Program-made: the position numbers and the translations under genes | The notes under the pieces: model-generated | What the model was told of the DNA's origin: nothing | The model's database searches: none | The model's input: only the letters and a program-made list of their open reading frames with translations | In this document: positions 22,829-47,759 of the stretch, piece by piece | How the letters are laid out: each line of letters starts with the position of its first letter | Numbering within the stretch: the first letter of the stretch is position 1 | Assembly: GCA_003989075.1 (NCBI GenBank) | Contig: RXIX01000006.1 | Location: 1-59,310, forward strand | Reading direction: 5' to 3' | DNA: 59,310 nucleotides | Source: Candidatus Competibacteraceae bacterium | GTDB taxonomy: Bacteria; Pseudomonadota; Gammaproteobacteria; Competibacterales; Competibacteraceae

Positions 22829-25800
22829 TTGAACCCGATGCCCCCGCCCTTGAAACATGCCGACTGCGAACGCCTGCAGCAGTTGATAAACGCGATTGGC
22901 GATGGCGTCTGGGACTGGGACCGTGTCGCGGATCGCATCGACTGGGATGCGCGCAGCTACGCCCTGCTCGGCTATGCGCCGGATGCCTTTCCGCTTAATC
23001 TGGCCACCTGGAAGACCCTGATTCATCCCGAGGATCGCGCCACAGCCTGGGAGATGGTGGCCACGCAGTTGCGCAGCGGCCAGCGCTTCAGCGTCGAATT
23101 TCGCTACCAGCGCGCCGATGGCGGCTGGATATGGGTGCAGGGGCGCGGCCAGGTGGTGAGCCGGAATGAACAGGGCGAAGCGACGCGCCTGTTGGGTACG
23201 CACACCGATATCAGCGCGCGCCGCGCCATCATCCAGCAACTGGCCGAGGAGCGCCTGCTGCTGCGCAGCCTGTATGCGGCGATTCCCGATCTGGTCTGGC
23301 TCAAGGATCTGCACGGCCGCTTCCTGGTCTGCAACCCGGCGGTCGCCGCCTATTACGGTGCGCCGGCCGAGGAGATTCTCGGCCGCTGCGATGCCGATTT
23401 CGTCAGCGCCGAAACCGCCGCGGCCTATCGCCGCAAGGATCAGCACGTCGCCGCGACCGGCGTGCCGCATCGCTACGAACAGTGGATGCAGCATGCGGAT
23501 GGGCGCCCGCGCCGGGTCGAAGTCACCAAGGTGCCGCTGCGCCGCGATGATGGCAGTCTGCTCGGCGTACTGGGCGTGGCGCGCGACATCAGCGACCGTC
23601 ATGCCACGGAGGAACGTCTGCGGCAGCTTTCGCTGGCGGTCGAGCAAAGCCCGGTGTCGATCGTGGTCACCGATCTTGATGCCCGCATTCAGTACGTCAA
23701 CCCCTGCTTCAGCCGTGTCACCGGCTACAGCGCTGCCGAAGTGCTCAACCAGAACCCGCGCATTCTGCAGTCCGGAGTGACCCGTCCCGAAACCTACCAG
23801 GCCCTGTGGGACACGGTCACCGCCGGCAAAACCTGGAGCGGACTGCTGCACAACCGGCGCAAGGATGGCTCGCTGTATTGGGAACAGGCCATCATCAGCC
23901 CGATCCGCGACAACGAAGGCCGCATCGTTCAGTACTTGGGCGTCAAGCAGGACATCACCCTGCAAAAGCAGCTTGAGGACGCCCTGGCGCGCAGCGAAGC
24001 CCGTTATCGGACCCTGTTCGAATCGGCGCGGGTGGCGATGCTGCTGATCGATCCGAATGATGGCTGCATCATCGAGGCCAATGCCGCCGCCTGCGCCTAT
24101 TACGGTTACAGTGCTGCGCAGATGCGGGCGCTGCATATCGGCGATATCAACACTCTGAGCGCGGAGCAGTTGCGCACCGAAATGGCCTGCGCCCAGCTGG
24201 ACAACCGCTACCAGTTCTTTTTCCGTCACCGCTTGGCTAATGGCCAGTTGCGTGATGTCGAGGTGCATTCCGGGCCGATCGAGTTCAATGGCCGTTCGCT
24301 GCTGTACTCGATCATCCACGACATCACCGAGCGCCGCGCCGCCGAACAGCGCCTGCGCCTGATGGCCAGCGTATTCCGCCATGCCCATGATGGCATCGTC
24401 ATCACCGACACTGCGGTCAACATCATCGAAGTCAATGAAACCTTCACTACCCTGACCGGCTACAGCCGCGACGAGGTGCTCGGGCGGAATCCACGCCTGC
24501 TGCAGTCGGGCCACCATGAGCGCGCCTTCTACGCCGGCATGTGGCAGGCCCTGAACAGCGACGGTTTCTGGACTGGCGAGATGTGGAACCGCAAGAAAAA
24601 CGGCGAGATCTACGCCGAAATCGCCAGCATCTCGGCGGTGCGCGACGATCAGGGCCAGGTGACGCACTACGTCAACGTGTTCGCCGACATCACCGCCCTC
24701 AAACACAGCCAGCAGCGGCTCGAACGGCTGGCCTTCCATGACCCGCTGACCGGTCTGCCCAACCGGGCGCTGCTCAGCGATCGTCTGAGCCAGGCCATCG
24801 CCAACGCCGAACGCAGCGCCAGCCTGCTGGCAGTCGGCTATCTTGATCTGGACGGATTCAAGCCGGTCAACGACCGTCTTGGCCATGCCGCCGGCGATCA
24901 ACTGCTGATCGCGGTGGCGCGGCGCCTGGGCGCGGAACTGCGCAGCAGCGATACCCTGTCGCGTCTGGGCGGCGATGAATTTGTTCTGCTGCTCAACGAT
25001 CTGGGTGATCTGAATGCCTGCGAGCGCGCCCTGTACCGGATTCTGGCCGCTCTGGCCGCGCCGTTCACCATCGCCGGGCAGCAGGTCACGGTTTCGGCCA
25101 GTCTCGGCGTCAGTCTCTATCCGCTCGACCATGTCGACGCCGATACCCTGATCCGCCACGCCGATCAGGCGATGTACGCTGCCAAGCAGGCCGGCCGCAA
25201 CCGCTACCGTCTGTTCGACCGGGAGCGCGACCAGCAGGTCCAGCAGCAGAGCACGCTGCTCGGACAGCTGGCGGCGGCCCTGCAGCAGAACGCTCTGGTG
25301 CTGCACTATCAGCCCCAGGTTGATCTGCGCCGCGGCACGGTGACCGGTGTCGAGGCCCTGCTGCGCTGGCCCTGCCCGGAGCGCGGCCTGCTGCTGGCGG
25401 ATGAGTTCCTGCCCGGGATCGAGCACAGCGATCTGATGATCAGCCTCGGCGAGTGGGTGCTGGAAACGGCGCTGCGCCAGCTCGATGCATGGGCTGCCCT
25501 TGGCCAGGCGCTGCCGCTGAGCGTTAACATCGCGGCCCGCCACCTGCGGCAGCCTGATTTCATCGCCCGCCTGCGGGCATTGCTGGCCCGCTACCCTGCG
25601 GTGCAGCCGCAGTGGCTGGTACTGGAACTGCGCGAAAGCGCGGCGCTGGATCAGCTGGCCCAGATGATCGAGATTATCGGCGCCTGCCAGCGGCTCGGCG
25701 TGCGCGTTGCGCTCGATGATTTTGGCACCGCGCATTCCTCGCTGCATTATTTCCGCCGCCTGTCGGCTAACGACATCAAGATCGATCGCAGCCTGATCGG

Positions 25801-26434
25801 CAGCATGCTCGACGAAACCGAGGATCTGGCGATCATCGAAGCCATCATCGGCCTGACCGAGACCTTCCAGCGGCAGGTGATCGCCAAGGGCGTCGAGCAG
25901 GTCGAGCAGGGTGCGCTGTTGCTGCAACTGGGCTGTGATCAGGCGCAGGGCTTCATCATCGCACCAGCGATGCCCGGCTCGCAGGTGCCGGTGTGGCGCG
26001 CAGGCTGGCGGCCTGATCCACGCTGGTGCGCCCTGGCCACGCACTACTGGCCACGGGCCGATTTTCCGTTGCTGGCCCTGGGTATTGAACACCGGCGCTG
26101 GGCACAGCGGATTCGCCGGGCGCTGACCCATGAGGAGGATGTGCCGACCCTGACCAGCATTCTGACCCGCCACAGCAGCGAGCACGGCGACTGTTTCATG
26201 CACTGGCTGGAGCGGCGGGGCCGTGCATATCGCCAGCGCCCCGAATTGGCCCTGCTGCTTGATACCCACAGTCGCTTTCACGCCATCGCCGACCAGATCA
26301 TCCAGCGCCAGCGGCACGGTGATCACGCCGGCGCCGCTCAAGAGCTGGCCCTGCTGGACAAGGAGCTTACTGTATTGCTGGCGGCGGCGGAGCGCGTCCA
26401 ACACATCGTGGCTTTGCCGGAATCGGCTCGCTAG
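22829..26434 (+). CDS. PAS-rich GGDEF-EAL protein with C-terminal CZB domain; EAL half probably inactive
   Basis: The 1201-residue cytosolic protein has five PAS-like domains in tandem (about 12-130, 140-262, 268-392, 397-520, 524-645), a GGDEF domain with intact GGDEF at 714-718 and an inhibitory RxxD site at 705-708, an EAL domain (about 820-1065) and a C-terminal zinc-binding CZB domain with candidate ligands His1088, Cys1122, His1147 and His1151. In the EAL domain Glu842, the Asn of NIAARHL, both Asp of DDFG, the Lys of DIKID and the late Gln are kept, but the catalytic-base Glu of the usual AEGVE motif is Lys1020. Prediction: a zinc-tuned diguanylate cyclase with a non-catalytic EAL sensor. 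TTG 22829 was chosen for AGGA 9 bases before it; ATG 22838 is possible. Confidence 0.93.
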   Translation: MNPMPPPLKHADCERLQQLINAIGDGVWDWDRVADRIDWDARSYALLGYAPDAFPLNLATWKTLIHPEDRATAWEMVATQLRSGQRFSVEFRYQRADGGWIWVQGRGQVVSRNEQGEATRLLGTHTDISARRAIIQQLAEERLLLRSLYAAIPDLVWLKDLHGRFLVCNPAVAAYYGAPAEEILGRCDADFVSAETAAAYRRKDQHVAATGVPHRYEQWMQHADGRPRRVEVTKVPLRRDDGSLLGVLGVARDISDRHATEERLRQLSLAVEQSPVSIVVTDLDARIQYVNPCFSRVTGYSAAEVLNQNPRILQSGVTRPETYQALWDTVTAGKTWSGLLHNRRKDGSLYWEQAIISPIRDNEGRIVQYLGVKQDITLQKQLEDALARSEARYRTLFESARVAMLLIDPNDGCIIEANAAACAYYGYSAAQMRALHIGDINTLSAEQLRTEMACAQLDNRYQFFFRHRLANGQLRDVEVHSGPIEFNGRSLLYSIIHDITERRAAEQRLRLMASVFRHAHDGIVITDTAVNIIEVNETFTTLTGYSRDEVLGRNPRLLQSGHHERAFYAGMWQALNSDGFWTGEMWNRKKNGEIYAEIASISAVRDDQGQVTHYVNVFADITALKHSQQRLERLAFHDPLTGLPNRALLSDRLSQAIANAERSASLLAVGYLDLDGFKPVNDRLGHAAGDQLLIAVARRLGAELRSSDTLSRLGGDEFVLLLNDLGDLNACERALYRILAALAAPFTIAGQQVTVSASLGVSLYPLDHVDADTLIRHADQAMYAAKQAGRNRYRLFDRERDQQVQQQSTLLGQLAAALQQNALVLHYQPQVDLRRGTVTGVEALLRWPCPERGLLLADEFLPGIEHSDLMISLGEWVLETALRQLDAWAALGQALPLSVNIAARHLRQPDFIARLRALLARYPAVQPQWLVLELRESAALDQLAQMIEIIGACQRLGVRVALDDFGTAHSSLHYFRRLSANDIKIDRSLIGSMLDETEDLAIIEAIIGLTETFQRQVIAKGVEQVEQGALLLQLGCDQAQGFIIAPAMPGSQVPVWRAGWRPDPRWCALATHYWPRADFPLLALGIEHRRWAQRIRRALTHEEDVPTLTSILTRHSSEHGDCFMHWLERRGRAYRQRPELALLLDTHSRFHAIADQIIQRQRHGDHAGAAQELALLDKELTVLLAAAERVQHIVALPESAR

Positions 26435-26441
26435 CGCCACC

Positions 26442-28748
26442 GTGGACATTCGGCCCCGACACCCGGCCCGCCTCACACCCGCCGCCTCACTGTCCTCGCG
26501 CCGGGTGCCATATCGCATCCTGGCCCGCTGCCTGTGCCTGCTGCTGACGCTGCTGGCCGCGTCGTGGGCCAGCGCCGCCGGTGATGCAGACACCTGCGTG
26601 GATACTGGAAATGGACCGGTCGGCTGGTTCGGCAGCATCGATATGGGCAGTTGGACCACCCTGCTGCCCTATCTATGGTTGCTGGTGCTGCTGGCCGGGA
26701 TCGCCGTCGCGGCGCTGCTGTGGTCGTGGCTGCTGCGCCGGCAGGTCGCGCAGCGCACCCGCCAATTGCAACAGGAGCTGAGCGAGCGCCGCCAGGTAGA
26801 AGCGGCGTTGCGCGAGAGCGAGACCCGTTTTCGCGATGTTACCGAGGCAGCCAGCGACTGGATCTGGGAAATGGATGCCAATCTGCGCTTCACCTATCTT
26901 TCCGAGCGCTTCTACGCCCTGACTGGAATTGCCCCGCAGAGCGTGCTCAATCGCGCCCGCTGGGAGCTGGCGCAGCAGGATTCCGCCGCCGAACGCGAAA
27001 AATGGCGCCAGCATCGCGCCCTGCTGGAGCGGCGTCATCCGTTTCGCGATTTCATTTACCGCACCGGCAGCGGTATCGGCATCCGCAGCGGCGACAGCCG
27101 CTACCTGAAAATCAGCGGCAAGCCGGTGTTCGACCACGAAGGGCGCTTTTGCGGCTATCGCGGCACCGGCACCGATATCACTGAGCAGTTGCGCGCCGAA
27201 GCGGCGCTGCACGAAAGCGAGTTGCGCCTGCGGCGGATCATCGATCTGGTGCCGCACATGATCTTCGCCAAGGACCGCCGTGGTCATTTCCTGCTCGCCA
27301 ACCGCGCGGTCGCCGCCGCCTATGGCCTGAGCGTGGAGGAACTGGTCAGCCAGCCGCATGCCGTGGTCCATCACCCGGGTGAGGAACTGGCACGGATGCT
27401 GGCCGATGACCGCGAAGTGATCGAAAGCGGCGATTCCAAGTACATCGCCGAGGAATCGTTCACCGACCACACCGGCCAGGTGCGCACCCTGCAGACCATC
27501 AAGATTCCGTTCAATGAACCCAGCCTTGACGAAACTGCGGTGCTGGGCGTGGCCATCGACATCACCGAGCAGAAGAATGCCAAGGAAGAGGTGGCGCGCA
27601 TGCGCCACTATCTGAAGAACATTATCGACTCGATGCCCTCGATGCTGATTGGCGTCGATCCCTGGGGCTATATCACCGTGCTCAACCAGCCCGCCGAGCA
27701 GGCCAGCGGCGTGAGCTGGGAAGCGGCGCAGGGGCGCTTTTTCGGTGATCTGTTCCCGCAACTCGACAGCCAGTTCGAACAGATCCGCCAGGCGATCCGT
27801 CTGGGGCGCTCGATCAAGACCCCGCGCATGACCCTGGACAGCCAGGGCGAACTGCGCTACGCCGATGTGATGGTCTATCCTCTGGTGGCGGACGGCGCCA
27901 GTGGCGCGGTGATCCGGGTTGATGATGTCACCGCCCGGGTGCGCATCGAATCGATGATGGTGCAAACCGAGAAAATGCTCTCGGTGGGCGGGCTGGCCGC
28001 CGGCATGGCCCACGAGATCAACAACCCGCTGGGCGCAATCCTGCAGGGCTGCCAGAATATCCGCCGGCGCATCGATCCGGGCATGCCGCAGAACCGCGCC
28101 GTCGCCGCCGCCATCGGCCTTGATCTGGAACAGCTCAACCGCTACCTGGAACAGCGCCGCATCCTGCACTTCCTGGAGGGCGTGCGCGAAGCCGGCACCC
28201 GCGCCGCCAAGATCGTCGCCGACATGCTCTCGTTCAGTCGGCGCAGCGAATCGCATTTTGGTCCGGTTGATCTGGAGGACATGCTGGAAACCGTGCTGCG
28301 CCTGGCCGCGAGCGACTACGATCTGAAAAAGAAATACGACTTCAAGCGTATCATTATCGAGCGCCAATACGATGCAGGGCTGCGCCGGGTGAACTGCGAC
28401 AAGACCGAGATGGAGCAGGTCATTCTCAACCTGCTCAAGAATGCTGCCCAGGCCATGGCAGACGACGGCACGCCGAGTCCGACCATTACCCTACGCACCG
28501 GGCGCGAGCCGGACTATGCTTTAATCGAAGTCATTGACAACGGCCCCGGCATGGATGAAAAAACCATCAAGCGCATCTTCGAGCCCTTTTTTACCACCAA
28601 GGATGTCGGCATTGGTACGGGTCTGGGCTTGTCGGTGTCTTATTTCATCGTCACCGAGCAGCACAATGGCCGGCTGTCGGTGCAATCAAAGCCCGGGCAT
28701 GGCGCCTGTTTCAGTATTCGCCTGCCGTTGCGGCGGAGGATGCTGTGA
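26442..28748 (+). CDS. Membrane PAS sensor histidine kinase
   Basis: The 768-residue protein has an N-terminal signal-like segment (LARCLCLLLTLLAASWASA), a short periplasmic stretch, a transmembrane helix (LLPYLWLLVLLAGIAVAALL) and a coiled coil. Three PAS domains follow (about 125-250, 260-375, 385-490). The HisKA domain has GLAAGMAHEINNPLGAIL, and the HATPase_c domain has NLLKNAAQAM, DNGPGMDE and GTGLGLSVSYF. An inserted stretch between the first and second HisKA helices (about 545-600) is longer than usual. GTG 26442 lies 7 bases after the previous stop; GTG 26505 would give a shorter signal. It heads a block with a receiver, RssB-like and RssC-like genes and probably phosphorylates one of the receivers. 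Confidence 0.9.
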   Translation: MDIRPRHPARLTPAASLSSRRVPYRILARCLCLLLTLLAASWASAAGDADTCVDTGNGPVGWFGSIDMGSWTTLLPYLWLLVLLAGIAVAALLWSWLLRRQVAQRTRQLQQELSERRQVEAALRESETRFRDVTEAASDWIWEMDANLRFTYLSERFYALTGIAPQSVLNRARWELAQQDSAAEREKWRQHRALLERRHPFRDFIYRTGSGIGIRSGDSRYLKISGKPVFDHEGRFCGYRGTGTDITEQLRAEAALHESELRLRRIIDLVPHMIFAKDRRGHFLLANRAVAAAYGLSVEELVSQPHAVVHHPGEELARMLADDREVIESGDSKYIAEESFTDHTGQVRTLQTIKIPFNEPSLDETAVLGVAIDITEQKNAKEEVARMRHYLKNIIDSMPSMLIGVDPWGYITVLNQPAEQASGVSWEAAQGRFFGDLFPQLDSQFEQIRQAIRLGRSIKTPRMTLDSQGELRYADVMVYPLVADGASGAVIRVDDVTARVRIESMMVQTEKMLSVGGLAAGMAHEINNPLGAILQGCQNIRRRIDPGMPQNRAVAAAIGLDLEQLNRYLEQRRILHFLEGVREAGTRAAKIVADMLSFSRRSESHFGPVDLEDMLETVLRLAASDYDLKKKYDFKRIIIERQYDAGLRRVNCDKTEMEQVILNLLKNAAQAMADDGTPSPTITLRTGREPDYALIEVIDNGPGMDEKTIKRIFEPFFTTKDVGIGTGLGLSVSYFIVTEQHNGRLSVQSKPGHGACFSIRLPLRRRML

Positions 28749-29131
28749 TGACCTGGGTGCTGATCGTCGATGATGAGGATATGATCCGCGAAAATCTGAA
28801 AGTGTACCTGGAAGATGAAGGCCTGCAGGCAGCGGCATTCGCGGCCGTCGGCCCGGCCCTGGCGTGGCTGCGCGCGGGTCATGCCTGCCCGGTGTGCATC
28901 ATGGACATGCGACTGCCGGACATGGACGGCAACAGCGCCATTCGCACCCTGCACCGGCTCTATCCCGACATGGCATTCCTGATCCACACCGGCTCTTCCA
29001 GCTACAGCTTGCCCGAGGATCTGCGCGCCATGGGCCTGGACGAGGGGCGGGTTTTTCGCAAACCGCTGAATGATATGGCGCCGCTGGCAGCCCTGGCCGG
29101 GCATCTGGCCGCGCGGAACGCATGCCTATGA
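28748..29131 (+). CDS. Single-domain response regulator
   Basis: This 127-residue receiver domain has no output domain. VLIVDDEDM is the acidic pocket, IMDMRLPDMDGN holds the phospho-acceptor Asp, the conserved Thr sits in LIHTGSS, and the Lys is in FRKPL. ATG 28748 shares a base with the kinase stop (TGATG) and has GGAGG 8 bases upstream. Its end overlaps the next gene by 10 bases. It may be a phosphate shuttle or sink for the upstream kinase. Confidence 0.93.
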   Translation: MTWVLIVDDEDMIRENLKVYLEDEGLQAAAFAAVGPALAWLRAGHACPVCIMDMRLPDMDGNSAIRTLHRLYPDMAFLIHTGSSSYSLPEDLRAMGLDEGRVFRKPLNDMAPLAALAGHLAARNACL

Positions 29132-30309
29132 ACGAACGCCCGGTCCGCATCCTGTCGATCGATGACGAAGCGCTGGTGCGCGAGATCATCACCGCCTATC
29201 TTGAAGACAGCGGCTTCGAAGTGATTCAGGCCAGTGATGGACGCACCGGCGTCCAGCTCTGCCGCGACGCCCATCCCGATCTGGTGCTGTGCGATCTGCG
29301 CATGCCAGGCATGGATGGCCTGCAGGTGCTCGCCCAGGTGACCCGCGAATTCCCCGAACTGCCGATCCTGGTGGTGTCAGGCATGGGCGGCATGAGCGAT
29401 GCCATCCAGGCCCTGAAGCTCGGTGCCTGGGACTATGTCACCAAACCGATCGAAGACATGGCGATGCTCGAACACGCCATCGATCACGCCCTGGAGCGGG
29501 CGCGGCTGCGGCGCGAGAACCGCGAGCACCGCGAACACCTGGAAATGGTCAATGAGCAGTTGCGCCAGACCGTGCGCCAGTTGCAGGAGGATGAAGCGGC
29601 GGCGCGGCGCATCCAGTTTCAGTTGCTGCCGGAAAACGACAAGCAGTACCGCAATTACCAGTTCAGCCGCCATCTGCTGACCTCGCAGTATCTGAGCGGC
29701 GATTTCGTCGATTACTTCGCCATCGACGGCGACCATCTTGGTTTCTACATCGCCGATGTCTCCGGACATGGCGTATCCTCAGCCTTTGTCACCGTGATGC
29801 TGAAAAGCTACATCGGCCGCTACCGGGAGCTGCACCGGCAAAACCGCGACAAGGGCATCCTCAACCCGGCCGAGACCCTCGGGCGACTGAACCGGGAGAT
29901 CTTCGGTTGCCACATGGACAAGTACCTGACCATGTTCTACGGCGTGATCGACTGGTCGGCCAACCGGCTGCGCTACAGCAGCGGTGGCCAGTTTCCCTTT
30001 CCGATTCTGTTCGATGGTGAGCAGGCCCGCTATATCGGCAAGAAGAGCCTGCCGATCGGGCTGTTCGATTTCGCCAGCTACCAGACCGAAGCGATGGAGC
30101 TGCCGCCGCGCTTCGTTATGGCGCTGATTTCCGATGGCATTCTGGAAACCCTGCCGCAGCAGACCCTGCGCGAGAAACAGCAGTTCCTGCTGGAACTGAT
30201 CCACGACACCAATCTGAGCATCGACACTCTGGTCCAGACCCTGGACCTGGACCGCATCGGGCTGCTGCCTGACGATGTCACCCTGCTGCTGGTCAAGCGC
30301 GCGGAGTGA
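29122..30309 (+). CDS. Receiver-PP2C phosphatase response regulator, RssB-like
   Basis: The 395-residue protein has a receiver (residues 8-125; LSIDDEALV, CDLRMPGMDG, TKP), a coiled-coil linker (RRENREHREHLEMVNEQLRQ) and a SpoIIE/PP2C-type phosphatase domain (about 190-392). The metal-binding pieces are LSGDFVDYF, ADVSGHGVSSAF and SDGILE near the end, all with their Asp residues. Length and layout match Pseudomonas RssB rather than HsbR, which has an extra kinase domain. It should dephosphorylate the STAS partner encoded next, in a partner-switching chain. The start may be ATG 29122 or 29128. Confidence 0.9.
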   Translation: MPMNERPVRILSIDDEALVREIITAYLEDSGFEVIQASDGRTGVQLCRDAHPDLVLCDLRMPGMDGLQVLAQVTREFPELPILVVSGMGGMSDAIQALKLGAWDYVTKPIEDMAMLEHAIDHALERARLRRENREHREHLEMVNEQLRQTVRQLQEDEAAARRIQFQLLPENDKQYRNYQFSRHLLTSQYLSGDFVDYFAIDGDHLGFYIADVSGHGVSSAFVTVMLKSYIGRYRELHRQNRDKGILNPAETLGRLNREIFGCHMDKYLTMFYGVIDWSANRLRYSSGGQFPFPILFDGEQARYIGKKSLPIGLFDFASYQTEAMELPPRFVMALISDGILETLPQQTLREKQQFLLELIHDTNLSIDTLVQTLDLDRIGLLPDDVTLLLVKRAE

Positions 30310-30314
30310 TGGCG

Positions 30315-30806
30315 ATGGAGGCGGGAGCAGCGTTCTACGTCAAGCAGAACCAGACCTATATCCTCAAGCTGGTCGGTGACATCCGCTATACCATGGGATG
30401 CACACTGGGCGATTTTCTCGATGATCTGTTCGCGCACGGCGACTGCGACGACATCATCGTCGATCTGACCGATACGCAATCGATCGACAGCACCAGCCTG
30501 GGCCTGCTGGCCAAGATCGCCAATTTCAGCCGCCAGCGCTTTGCCCGGCGCACCACCCTTCTATCCACCCATCCCGATGTCAATCAGGTGCTCGATAACC
30601 TGGGCTTCTACGACATCTTCAATATTCGCGATACCGGCGAGGCCATCACCGCAGCGTTGCGTGAGCTGGCGATCCAGCCACCGGCCAAGGAGCAGTTGAC
30701 GCGGATTGTCTTCGAAGCGCATCGCGCCCTGAGCGAACTCAATCCGCGCAACCAGGAAGCCTTCCGCAGCGTGCTCGACAGCCTGCGCCCCAAGCTGGGC
30801 GAGTGA
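30315..30806 (+). CDS. STAS-domain anti-sigma-factor antagonist, RssC-like
   Basis: The 163-residue protein has an N-terminal STAS domain (about residues 8-100). TDTQSIDSTSLGLL holds the Asp58-Ser59 site that is phosphorylated in SpoIIAA-like antagonists. A helical C-terminal part of about 60 residues has the pattern seen in RssC. The likely substrate partner is the phosphatase encoded just upstream, which would remove the phosphate and free it to bind an anti-sigma factor or other target. ATG 30315 has GGAG at exactly 8 bases; GTG 30306 and ATG 30309 are also in frame. No anti-sigma kinase gene is in the window. Confidence 0.87.
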   Translation: MEAGAAFYVKQNQTYILKLVGDIRYTMGCTLGDFLDDLFAHGDCDDIIVDLTDTQSIDSTSLGLLAKIANFSRQRFARRTTLLSTHPDVNQVLDNLGFYDIFNIRDTGEAITAALRELAIQPPAKEQLTRIVFEAHRALSELNPRNQEAFRSVLDSLRPKLGE

Positions 30807-45379: not shown

Positions 45380-45473
45380 AAAAAGCAAGGTAAGCGAACG
45401 TCCTGTTTATAAAGCATTTATTGATGCTTGTTCGAGCGGAGATATAAACGACGCTTAATTATGAATTCCTCAT

Positions 45474-47759
45474 ATGCGAAGACTTCCTATGACTTTCATC
45501 TCACGCAGCCACCGCAACAAGAATTTGCGCCATCGGGCGGAAGCGCTGCTGCAAAAGAAGCTGATACAGCCATTGCTGATTTCCAGTGATGTCAAGTCCT
45601 TGCAGCACGAGCTGCATGTGCACCGGATCGAACTGGAACTGCAGAATGAGGAACTGCGTGCCGCCGAGCAGCGCCTGCGTGGCCTGCTCGATCGCTACAC
45701 CGATCTGTATGATTTTGCCCCGGTCGGCTATTTGACCCTGGATGCCCAGGGCGTGATTGTCAAAGCCAACCAGTGTGGCGCGGCCCTGCTCGGTATCAAC
45801 CGCGACAAACTACCCGGTCAGGTCTTCACGAACTTTATCGCTGCGGTAGATTGCGACCGCTACATCGCCTATCGGGTGCGCCTGTTGCAGGCCAAGACAG
45901 GTGTGCCACCACTGGAAGTGTTGTTGCGGCCAGCGACCGGCGCATTGCGCTGTGTGCTCCTGAACGGCACCCGCGCGCCGACCGTAGCCGATCAGGCCGA
46001 GGAATATCGCTTCGCGCTGAGTGACATCACCGATCTGCGCCACGCTGAATCCACCCTCAAGGACACCACGGCACACTTGAGCGCCGTCCCGGACATGATG
46101 ATGACCGTGGATCGCGAGTTAAGGATTCGCACGCTCAACCATGCTCCTGAAGGTCTGGATTCCGGGCAGTTCATCGCAACGCCCATTCTCGATCACGTCG
46201 ACCCGACCAGCCGTGCCACCGTAGCGGACTCGCTGCGCCAGGTGCTCGACAGCGGCCAGCCCAACCGCCACGAAGCCCTGGCGATCGGTCCTTTCAACAG
46301 TCTGCACTGGTACGACACCCACGTCGGGCCAATCCTTGACAACGAGGGCGGCGTGGTCGGCGCAATCCTGGTCATCCGCGACATCACCGCGCGCAAGGTT
46401 TTGGAAGAAGCACTGCGCGAACGCGAGCGGCAGGTGCGCTTTCTCGCCGAGCACGATCCGTTGACGGGCCTGCCCAACCGGGCGCTGTTCGAGGACCGCC
46501 TCGCACAGGCCTGCAGCCAGGCACACCGCCAGCAGCAGCGGCTGGCAGTGCTCTTCATTGATCTGGACCGCTTCAAGCCGATCAACGACACCCTCGGTCA
46601 TGCCATCGGCGATCGCCTGCTGCAGGAAACCGCGCAACGGCTGGCGGCCTGCCTGCGCCAGAGCGATACCGTAGCGCGCATCGGCGGTGACGAGTTCGTG
46701 ATCCTGCTGCTGAACATCGAGGACATCAGCGCGGTGCGTCAGGTCATCGACAAACTGCTGGAGACGATCACCCAGCCGTTTCATATCGATGCACACTGTC
46801 TGCACATCTCGTTAAGCGTGGGCGTGGCGCTGTACCCCGAACACAGTCAGGATGTCGCGACCCTGCTGCGTCAGGCTGATACCGCCCTGTACAAAGCCAA
46901 GAGCGATGGCCGCGGTATCTGCCGATTCTACGAGCCGGCCATGGGCGAAACCGCGCTGGCACGCATGCATCTGGAAATCGAGCTGCGCACCGCCCTGCAA
47001 CGCGATGAGTTCATCCTGCTCTATCAGCCGCAGATTGCCGTCAGTCACGGACAGCCGATCGGTTTCGAGGTGCTGCTGCGCTGGCAGCATCCGCAGCGTG
47101 GCCTGCTGACACCGGAGCTGTTCATGGACGTCGCCGAGCAGAGCGGCCTGATGATACCGATCGGTGACTGGATCCTGGATAATGCCTGCCGGCAACTGCG
47201 CGCCTGGCAAAATGGCGGCGAAGGCGCGCGTCGAGCGCTGAGTGTGGCGGTCAACCTGTCGCGCACGCAACTGGCGCAGGACACTCTGCCGACGCGGATC
47301 ACAGCCATCCTCGCCGCGCACCAGTTGCACCCGGCGCAACTGGAACTGGAACTGCCCGAGGAAGCGCTGATGACCCATCCGACGGCATTGGCGCTGCTGG
47401 CGAAGCTCAAGCGTATTGGCGTGCGTCTGGTGCTGAACGAGTTTGGCGTTGGCTATTCCAGTCTGGAATATCTGCAGCAGATGCCGCTGGACAAGATCAA
47501 GATCGCCAGCAGCCTGGTACGCCAGTTGACACAGTCGCAGCGTCACGATGCCCTGGTCGCGGCGATCATTGGTCTGGGCAAGTATCTGGATTTGTGCGTG
47601 CTCGGGAGCGGGGTGGAAACCCGCGAGCAGTGGCAATTCCTGCAAGCTTATGGCTGCGACCAGTTACAGGGCGCGGCTATCGGCGCACCGCTGATGGCGG
47701 CAGCGGTCGAAGGCTGGCTGCGCGACTGGCATTACAGCCCGCTGGAGCTGTCCACCTAG
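45474..47759 (+). CDS. PAS-GGDEF-EAL protein with degenerate EAL domain
   Basis: The 761-residue cytosolic protein starts with a coiled coil (LQHELHVHRIELELQNEELR), then a PAS domain (about 70-190) opening with DLYDFAPVGYLTLD, a second PAS (about 195-310), GGDEF (GGDEF intact at 404-408, RxxD five residues before) and EAL. The EAL domain keeps Glu532, the Asn in VAVNLSR, Lys676 and the final Gln. The metal-binding Asp pair is Asn655-Glu656, the Asp after KI is Ala678, and the catalytic-base Glu is Ser712. Phosphodiesterase activity is therefore unlikely; cyclase activity is possible. ATG 45474 is used; ATG 45489 is an alternative, and neither has a strong RBS. Confidence 0.92.
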   Translation: MRRLPMTFISRSHRNKNLRHRAEALLQKKLIQPLLISSDVKSLQHELHVHRIELELQNEELRAAEQRLRGLLDRYTDLYDFAPVGYLTLDAQGVIVKANQCGAALLGINRDKLPGQVFTNFIAAVDCDRYIAYRVRLLQAKTGVPPLEVLLRPATGALRCVLLNGTRAPTVADQAEEYRFALSDITDLRHAESTLKDTTAHLSAVPDMMMTVDRELRIRTLNHAPEGLDSGQFIATPILDHVDPTSRATVADSLRQVLDSGQPNRHEALAIGPFNSLHWYDTHVGPILDNEGGVVGAILVIRDITARKVLEEALRERERQVRFLAEHDPLTGLPNRALFEDRLAQACSQAHRQQQRLAVLFIDLDRFKPINDTLGHAIGDRLLQETAQRLAACLRQSDTVARIGGDEFVILLLNIEDISAVRQVIDKLLETITQPFHIDAHCLHISLSVGVALYPEHSQDVATLLRQADTALYKAKSDGRGICRFYEPAMGETALARMHLEIELRTALQRDEFILLYQPQIAVSHGQPIGFEVLLRWQHPQRGLLTPELFMDVAEQSGLMIPIGDWILDNACRQLRAWQNGGEGARRALSVAVNLSRTQLAQDTLPTRITAILAAHQLHPAQLELELPEEALMTHPTALALLAKLKRIGVRLVLNEFGVGYSSLEYLQQMPLDKIKIASSLVRQLTQSQRHDALVAAIIGLGKYLDLCVLGSGVETREQWQFLQAYGCDQLQGAAIGAPLMAAAVEGWLRDWHYSPLELST

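Follow-up and report, generated by a model that had tools for sequence, protein, structure and literature searches.

The gene at 22829-26434 of the window (the whole stretch analysed, 59,310 nucleotides of contig RXIX01000006.1 of Candidatus Competibacteraceae bacterium, assembly GCA_003989075.1) raises the question of what becomes of a GGDEF-EAL protein when the catalytic base Glu of its EAL domain is replaced by Lys: does it still break down c-di-GMP, and if not, what could the EAL domain be kept for? The open reading frame lies on the forward strand, where the initial annotation had placed it, and encodes 1201 amino acids from a TTG codon; an in-frame ATG at 22838 may instead be the true start. 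Pfam and NCBIfam profiles bear out the proposed order of five PAS domains, GGDEF and EAL, with all these matches far over the cut-offs, and a CZB-like tail follows:

22829..26434, + strand: whole gene, 1201 amino acids, TTG start at 22829 or ATG at 22838
22880..24712, + strand: five PAS domains in tandem, spanning roughly residues 18-628, with approximate internal borders (five stretches each with PF00989 and TIGR00229)
24731..25204, + strand: GGDEF diguanylate cyclase domain, residues 635-792 (Pfam, 163.1 bits against a cut-off of 23.8)
24941..24982, + strand: I-site RSSD and active-site GGDEF, residues 705-718 (sequence reading)
25265..25966, + strand: EAL domain, residues 813-1046 (Pfam, 219.5 bits against 31.3; the model matches solved EAL domains)
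26090..26302, + strand: CZB-like domain, residues 1088-1158, as the Pfam stretch (Pfam score below cut-off, and family profile)

The GGDEF domain carries the sequence RSSD-TLSRL-GGDEF, with RxxD located five residues ahead of GGDEF (714-718), which is the canonical arrangement and agrees with the earlier description of an intact active site and I-site. Judging from these motifs, the protein probably still makes c-di-GMP.

The EAL domain was modelled with a pLDDT of 89.9, and the model matched the solved structures 4rni, 5m1t and 3n3t with TMt of about 0.9. Three of its features are central to the question:

25712..25732, + strand: LDDFGTA loop, in which both Asp persist and Ala968 replaces the final Gly of DDFGTG (alignment)
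25778..25780, + strand: catalytic Lys984 (sequence reading)
25886..25888, + strand: Lys1020 (AAG) replacing the first Glu of ExxE (sequence and alignment)

The residue 36 positions after Lys984 is Lys1020, as had been noted from the sequence. An alignment of 16 EAL-CZB proteins, including the window protein, confirmed that the other key residues persist (E842, N900, E933, D963, D964, K984, D986, E1023 and Q1040), so that, of the metal, substrate and ExxE residues of a catalytic EAL phosphodiesterase, only the first ExxE Glu is missing. The substitution is rare: of the 96 distinct EAL domains from the loci that were fetched, about 91% have Glu at this column, and the window protein is the only one with Lys. 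At columns conserved in 85% or more of these domains the window EAL deviates at 6 of 48, compared with four or fewer in 81 of the 96; its further changes at conserved positions are P857A, G968A, L975F, F989L and P1047A, and include a Gly of loop 6.

The consequences of losing this Glu can be gauged from homologues. A recent study of EAL residues reports that hydrolysis by TBD1265 depends on the first Glu of ExxE (E703) and is abolished by its loss, but does not need the second (E706) (PMC12943098); the catalytic role of the base Glu is taken here from later papers citing the mutagenesis. In PA3825, metal M2 is coordinated by Asp161, the second Asp of DDFG, and Glu217, which touches M2 in the calcium form, assumes the phosphate contact of that metal when the M2 site is empty (PMC5301497). 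Glu217 was equated with the base Glu by its spacing from the motif Lys, as mapped from Asp183. On the strength of these two homologues, loss of hydrolysis would be expected from Lys1020.

A search for close orthologues of the window protein returned none, the best match in any searched collection having about 46-47% identity and a scan of genome contigs giving only three matches (35-42%). In a tree of 54 EAL-CZB proteins, five lack the base Glu (Lys in the window protein, Gly in L038, Gln in L051, Val in L141 and in L157), and the well-supported branches require no fewer than four separate losses. A canonical GGDEF motif and I-site are retained by all five; the second Asp of DDFG is gone in the other four and kept in the window protein. 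When the mean family identity of the GGDEF domain was subtracted from that of the EAL domain, L157, L141 and the window protein gave the lowest values of 48, which makes the window EAL the third most diverged relative to its own GGDEF. The Glu-less group (n = 5) ranks low against the intact proteins (one-sided Mann-Whitney p 0.0017), a value that is indicative only, given the small number of Glu-less proteins and the mutual relatedness of the 48 that were compared. The EAL domain thus evolves faster than its GGDEF partner, as expected after loss of function. A 210-amino-acid EAL-CZB remnant in a related genome (L057, 1178-1807, - strand), probably a degraded copy, carries Gln in place of the base Glu, and its frame encodes no GGDEF domain.

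Other EAL domains with Lys at the base were sought in 369 genomes by a DNA pattern for V-[VIAMT]-A-K-G-[VIM]-[ED]. It occurred at 62 places, most of which were rejected as EAL domains because they belong to FlhB and other unrelated proteins, while the Glu version of the pattern turns up in 282 genomes of this set of 369, frequently at many places in one genome. Six clear Lys-type EAL domains were recovered (the window protein, L187/L225, L188/L224, L200, L211 and L216), along with a few short fragments. Every key residue save the base is kept in the window protein, L187, L188 and L211; L200 has also lost the catalytic Lys, and L216 the second Asp. Both Asp of the DD pair are retained in five of the six Lys-type domains versus none of eight Glu-less domains without Lys (Fisher p 0.003), a contrast that is only suggestive because the two sets were gathered by different routes. 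A comparison set with Gln at the base could not be drawn from a DNA pattern, as none of the 30 loci fetched proved to be an EAL domain with Gln. The Lys-type protein L225 (genome G075, - strand) has a PAS-GGDEF-EAL architecture and does not belong to the CZB family; it shows the Lys substitution alone, with a canonical GGDEF and I-site.

The reading to which we give somewhat better than even weight is that the protein acts on balance as a diguanylate cyclase, its EAL domain being regulatory and unable to cleave. In this scheme it would be a soluble multi-sensor cyclase whose GGDEF domain is controlled by the PAS array and perhaps by the CZB tail; this domain would make c-di-GMP under feedback limitation at the RxxD site, while the change of Glu to Lys at 1020 would stop cleavage by the EAL domain, leaving it to work as a regulatory module. 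Because all other metal and substrate residues remain, the EAL domain most likely still binds c-di-GMP, although binding may be gone as well, given the changes at further conserved positions including the loop-6 Gly. This last point leads to an alternative that we rate as possible and clearly less probable, namely that the protein is a net cyclase whose EAL domain neither cleaves nor binds c-di-GMP and is a mere dimerisation or inhibitory scaffold. Its model is E. coli DgcE, likewise a PAS-GGDEF-EAL cyclase, with a dead EAL domain that is inhibitory (PMC6510439), and the deviation of the window EAL at 6 of 48 conserved columns, more than in most EAL domains, fits it; however, DgcE has lost essentially all EAL ligand residues and the window protein one, and DgcE differs further in its MASE1 membrane domain and lack of a CZB domain. 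A more specific proposal, which we put forward tentatively and consider rather unlikely, concerns the chemistry of the pocket. By analogy with PA3825, M2 would be lined by both Asp964 and the lost Glu (window numbering), and the ammonium group of Lys1020 could substitute for this metal by pairing with Asp964, leaving a pocket that is charge-balanced without M2 and hence a metal-poor, non-cleaving c-di-GMP receptor that arose several times. The retention of the second Asp in most Lys-type domains, set against its loss in the other Glu-less ones, is suggestive of this, with the reservation already made on how the two sets were gathered.

Two further explanations would leave the enzyme active. 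An error of sequencing or assembly, or a very recent mutation, would make the product an ordinary bifunctional cyclase/phosphodiesterase: GAG and AAG differ by a single G-to-A change, and Glu is present at this site in most relatives, an outcome that the initial annotation had named in advance as pointing to an error. Against this, Lys recurs at the base site among unrelated EAL domains, and the entire window EAL has diverged to an unusual degree when set against its own GGDEF, with other conserved positions altered; such divergence implies a domain long under different selection rather than one misread base, and we therefore hold an error to be improbable. Even less probable is that the domain still cleaves c-di-GMP, slowly or via another base. 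Glu1023 and all other catalytic residues are kept, but removal of the first Glu abolished activity in TBD1265 and the second Glu is dispensable there, so rescue by Glu1023 is not expected. The proposal of a cyclase with a non-cleaving EAL domain is accordingly retained in its main part, supported by the intact GGDEF, the absence of the essential Glu and the faster divergence of the EAL domain; its 'zinc-tuned' qualifier is still conjectural, because the CZB tail is diverged and a deletion adjoins its Cys ligand.

The features of this tail are as follows:

26090..26092, + strand: putative zinc ligand His1088 (alignment)
26153..26185, + strand: extra segment before the Cys (TSILTRHSSEH region), about nine residues longer than in relatives (alignment)
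26192..26194, + strand: putative zinc ligand Cys1122, with one residue deleted just behind it (alignment)
26267..26269, + strand: putative zinc ligand His1147 (alignment)
26279..26281, + strand: putative zinc ligand His1151 (alignment)

The original assignment to CZB stood in part. The tail carries His, Cys, His and His in line with the 3His/1Cys ligands, and a profile of the tail family matches the solved CZB domain of DgcZ (3t9o) with an E-value of 2.2e-5 and the zinc ligands aligned. The Pfam model PF13682, however, gave only 17.3 and 23.1 bits, under its gathering score of 29.4, and the spacing from Cys to Trp is 4 in the window protein versus 5 in all 40 relatives, making it unique among the 41 sequences. 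The whole tail (1063-1201) was modelled as a helical bundle with a pLDDT of 86, which aligned with 3t9o over 117 residues (Z 10.7, rmsd 3.4) at rank 37 among many helical bundles; the predicted fold is compatible with CZB rather than diagnostic of it. The tail is thus a diverged CZB member with a deletion by its Cys ligand, and control of the protein by zinc or oxidants is plausible from its sequence. The reverse of this case, an intact EAL domain with CZB zinc ligands lost, is seen in several EAL-CZB relatives (L017/L072, L049/L070 and L159-L161).

The cyclase gene is closely followed on the same strand by genes for a PAS histidine kinase, a receiver protein, a receiver-SpoIIE phosphatase and a STAS protein (26441-30806, +), which overlap at their ends. 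By their arrangement they likely form an operon behind the cyclase and resemble a partner-switching module; the shared strand, close spacing and overlapping ends make co-expression with the cyclase a likely prediction. Profile searches of the genome found 18 EAL and 37 GGDEF matches. Among these 18 EAL domains (loci L105-L122), five or six lack either the base Glu or the DD pair; degeneration of this domain is thus common in the genome. The window itself encodes a second GGDEF-EAL protein with a degenerate EAL domain (45465-47756, +), having NEFG for DDFG, KIA for KID and Ser at the base.

The initial annotation implied an unusual protein, and in this it went too far: the PAS-GGDEF-EAL-CZB layout is already published (PMC6416229), EAL-CZB proteins are established as one of the CZB subgroups (PMC8262984), and in PAS-GGDEF-EAL proteins it is usual for one domain to be active and the other degenerate, the latter sometimes regulatory (PMC6510439). 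The domain order is shared with Acidithiobacillus AFE_1725 and AFE_1712 (PAS-/Protoglobin-GGDEF-EAL-CZB; PMC6416229); the window protein, for its part, has five PAS domains, an altered CZB and Lys at the base position. E. coli DgcZ (CZB-GGDEF; PMC8262984) likewise has a CZB domain attached to a cyclase, with 3His/1Cys aligned with the window tail family, but its CZB is N-terminal, it has no EAL domain, and its control by zinc and HOCl is measured, whereas that of the window protein, with its altered Cys region, is predicted from sequence. As in degenerate EAL receptors of the FimX type (PMC3527489), which do not cleave, the window EAL may bind c-di-GMP; FimX lacks the DDFGTG motif (PMC5301497), whereas the window protein retains both Asp.

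A change of role in a dead EAL domain is common in this class of proteins, and its Lys version is rare. What is new here is the form of the loss, by Lys alone, together with several separate losses among EAL-CZB proteins and the evidence against an error, which makes for a modest finding. Annotation would describe the window protein as a bifunctional cyclase/phosphodiesterase, while a net producer of c-di-GMP is more likely. On the EAL-CZB tree L038 (G025), which has lost both Glu and Asp, adjoins the intact L047 (G004), and the two form a natural pair in which the breakdown activity would have been lost recently and which is directly testable. The Lys-type pattern in turn suggests a concrete, testable route from enzyme to receptor for EAL domains.
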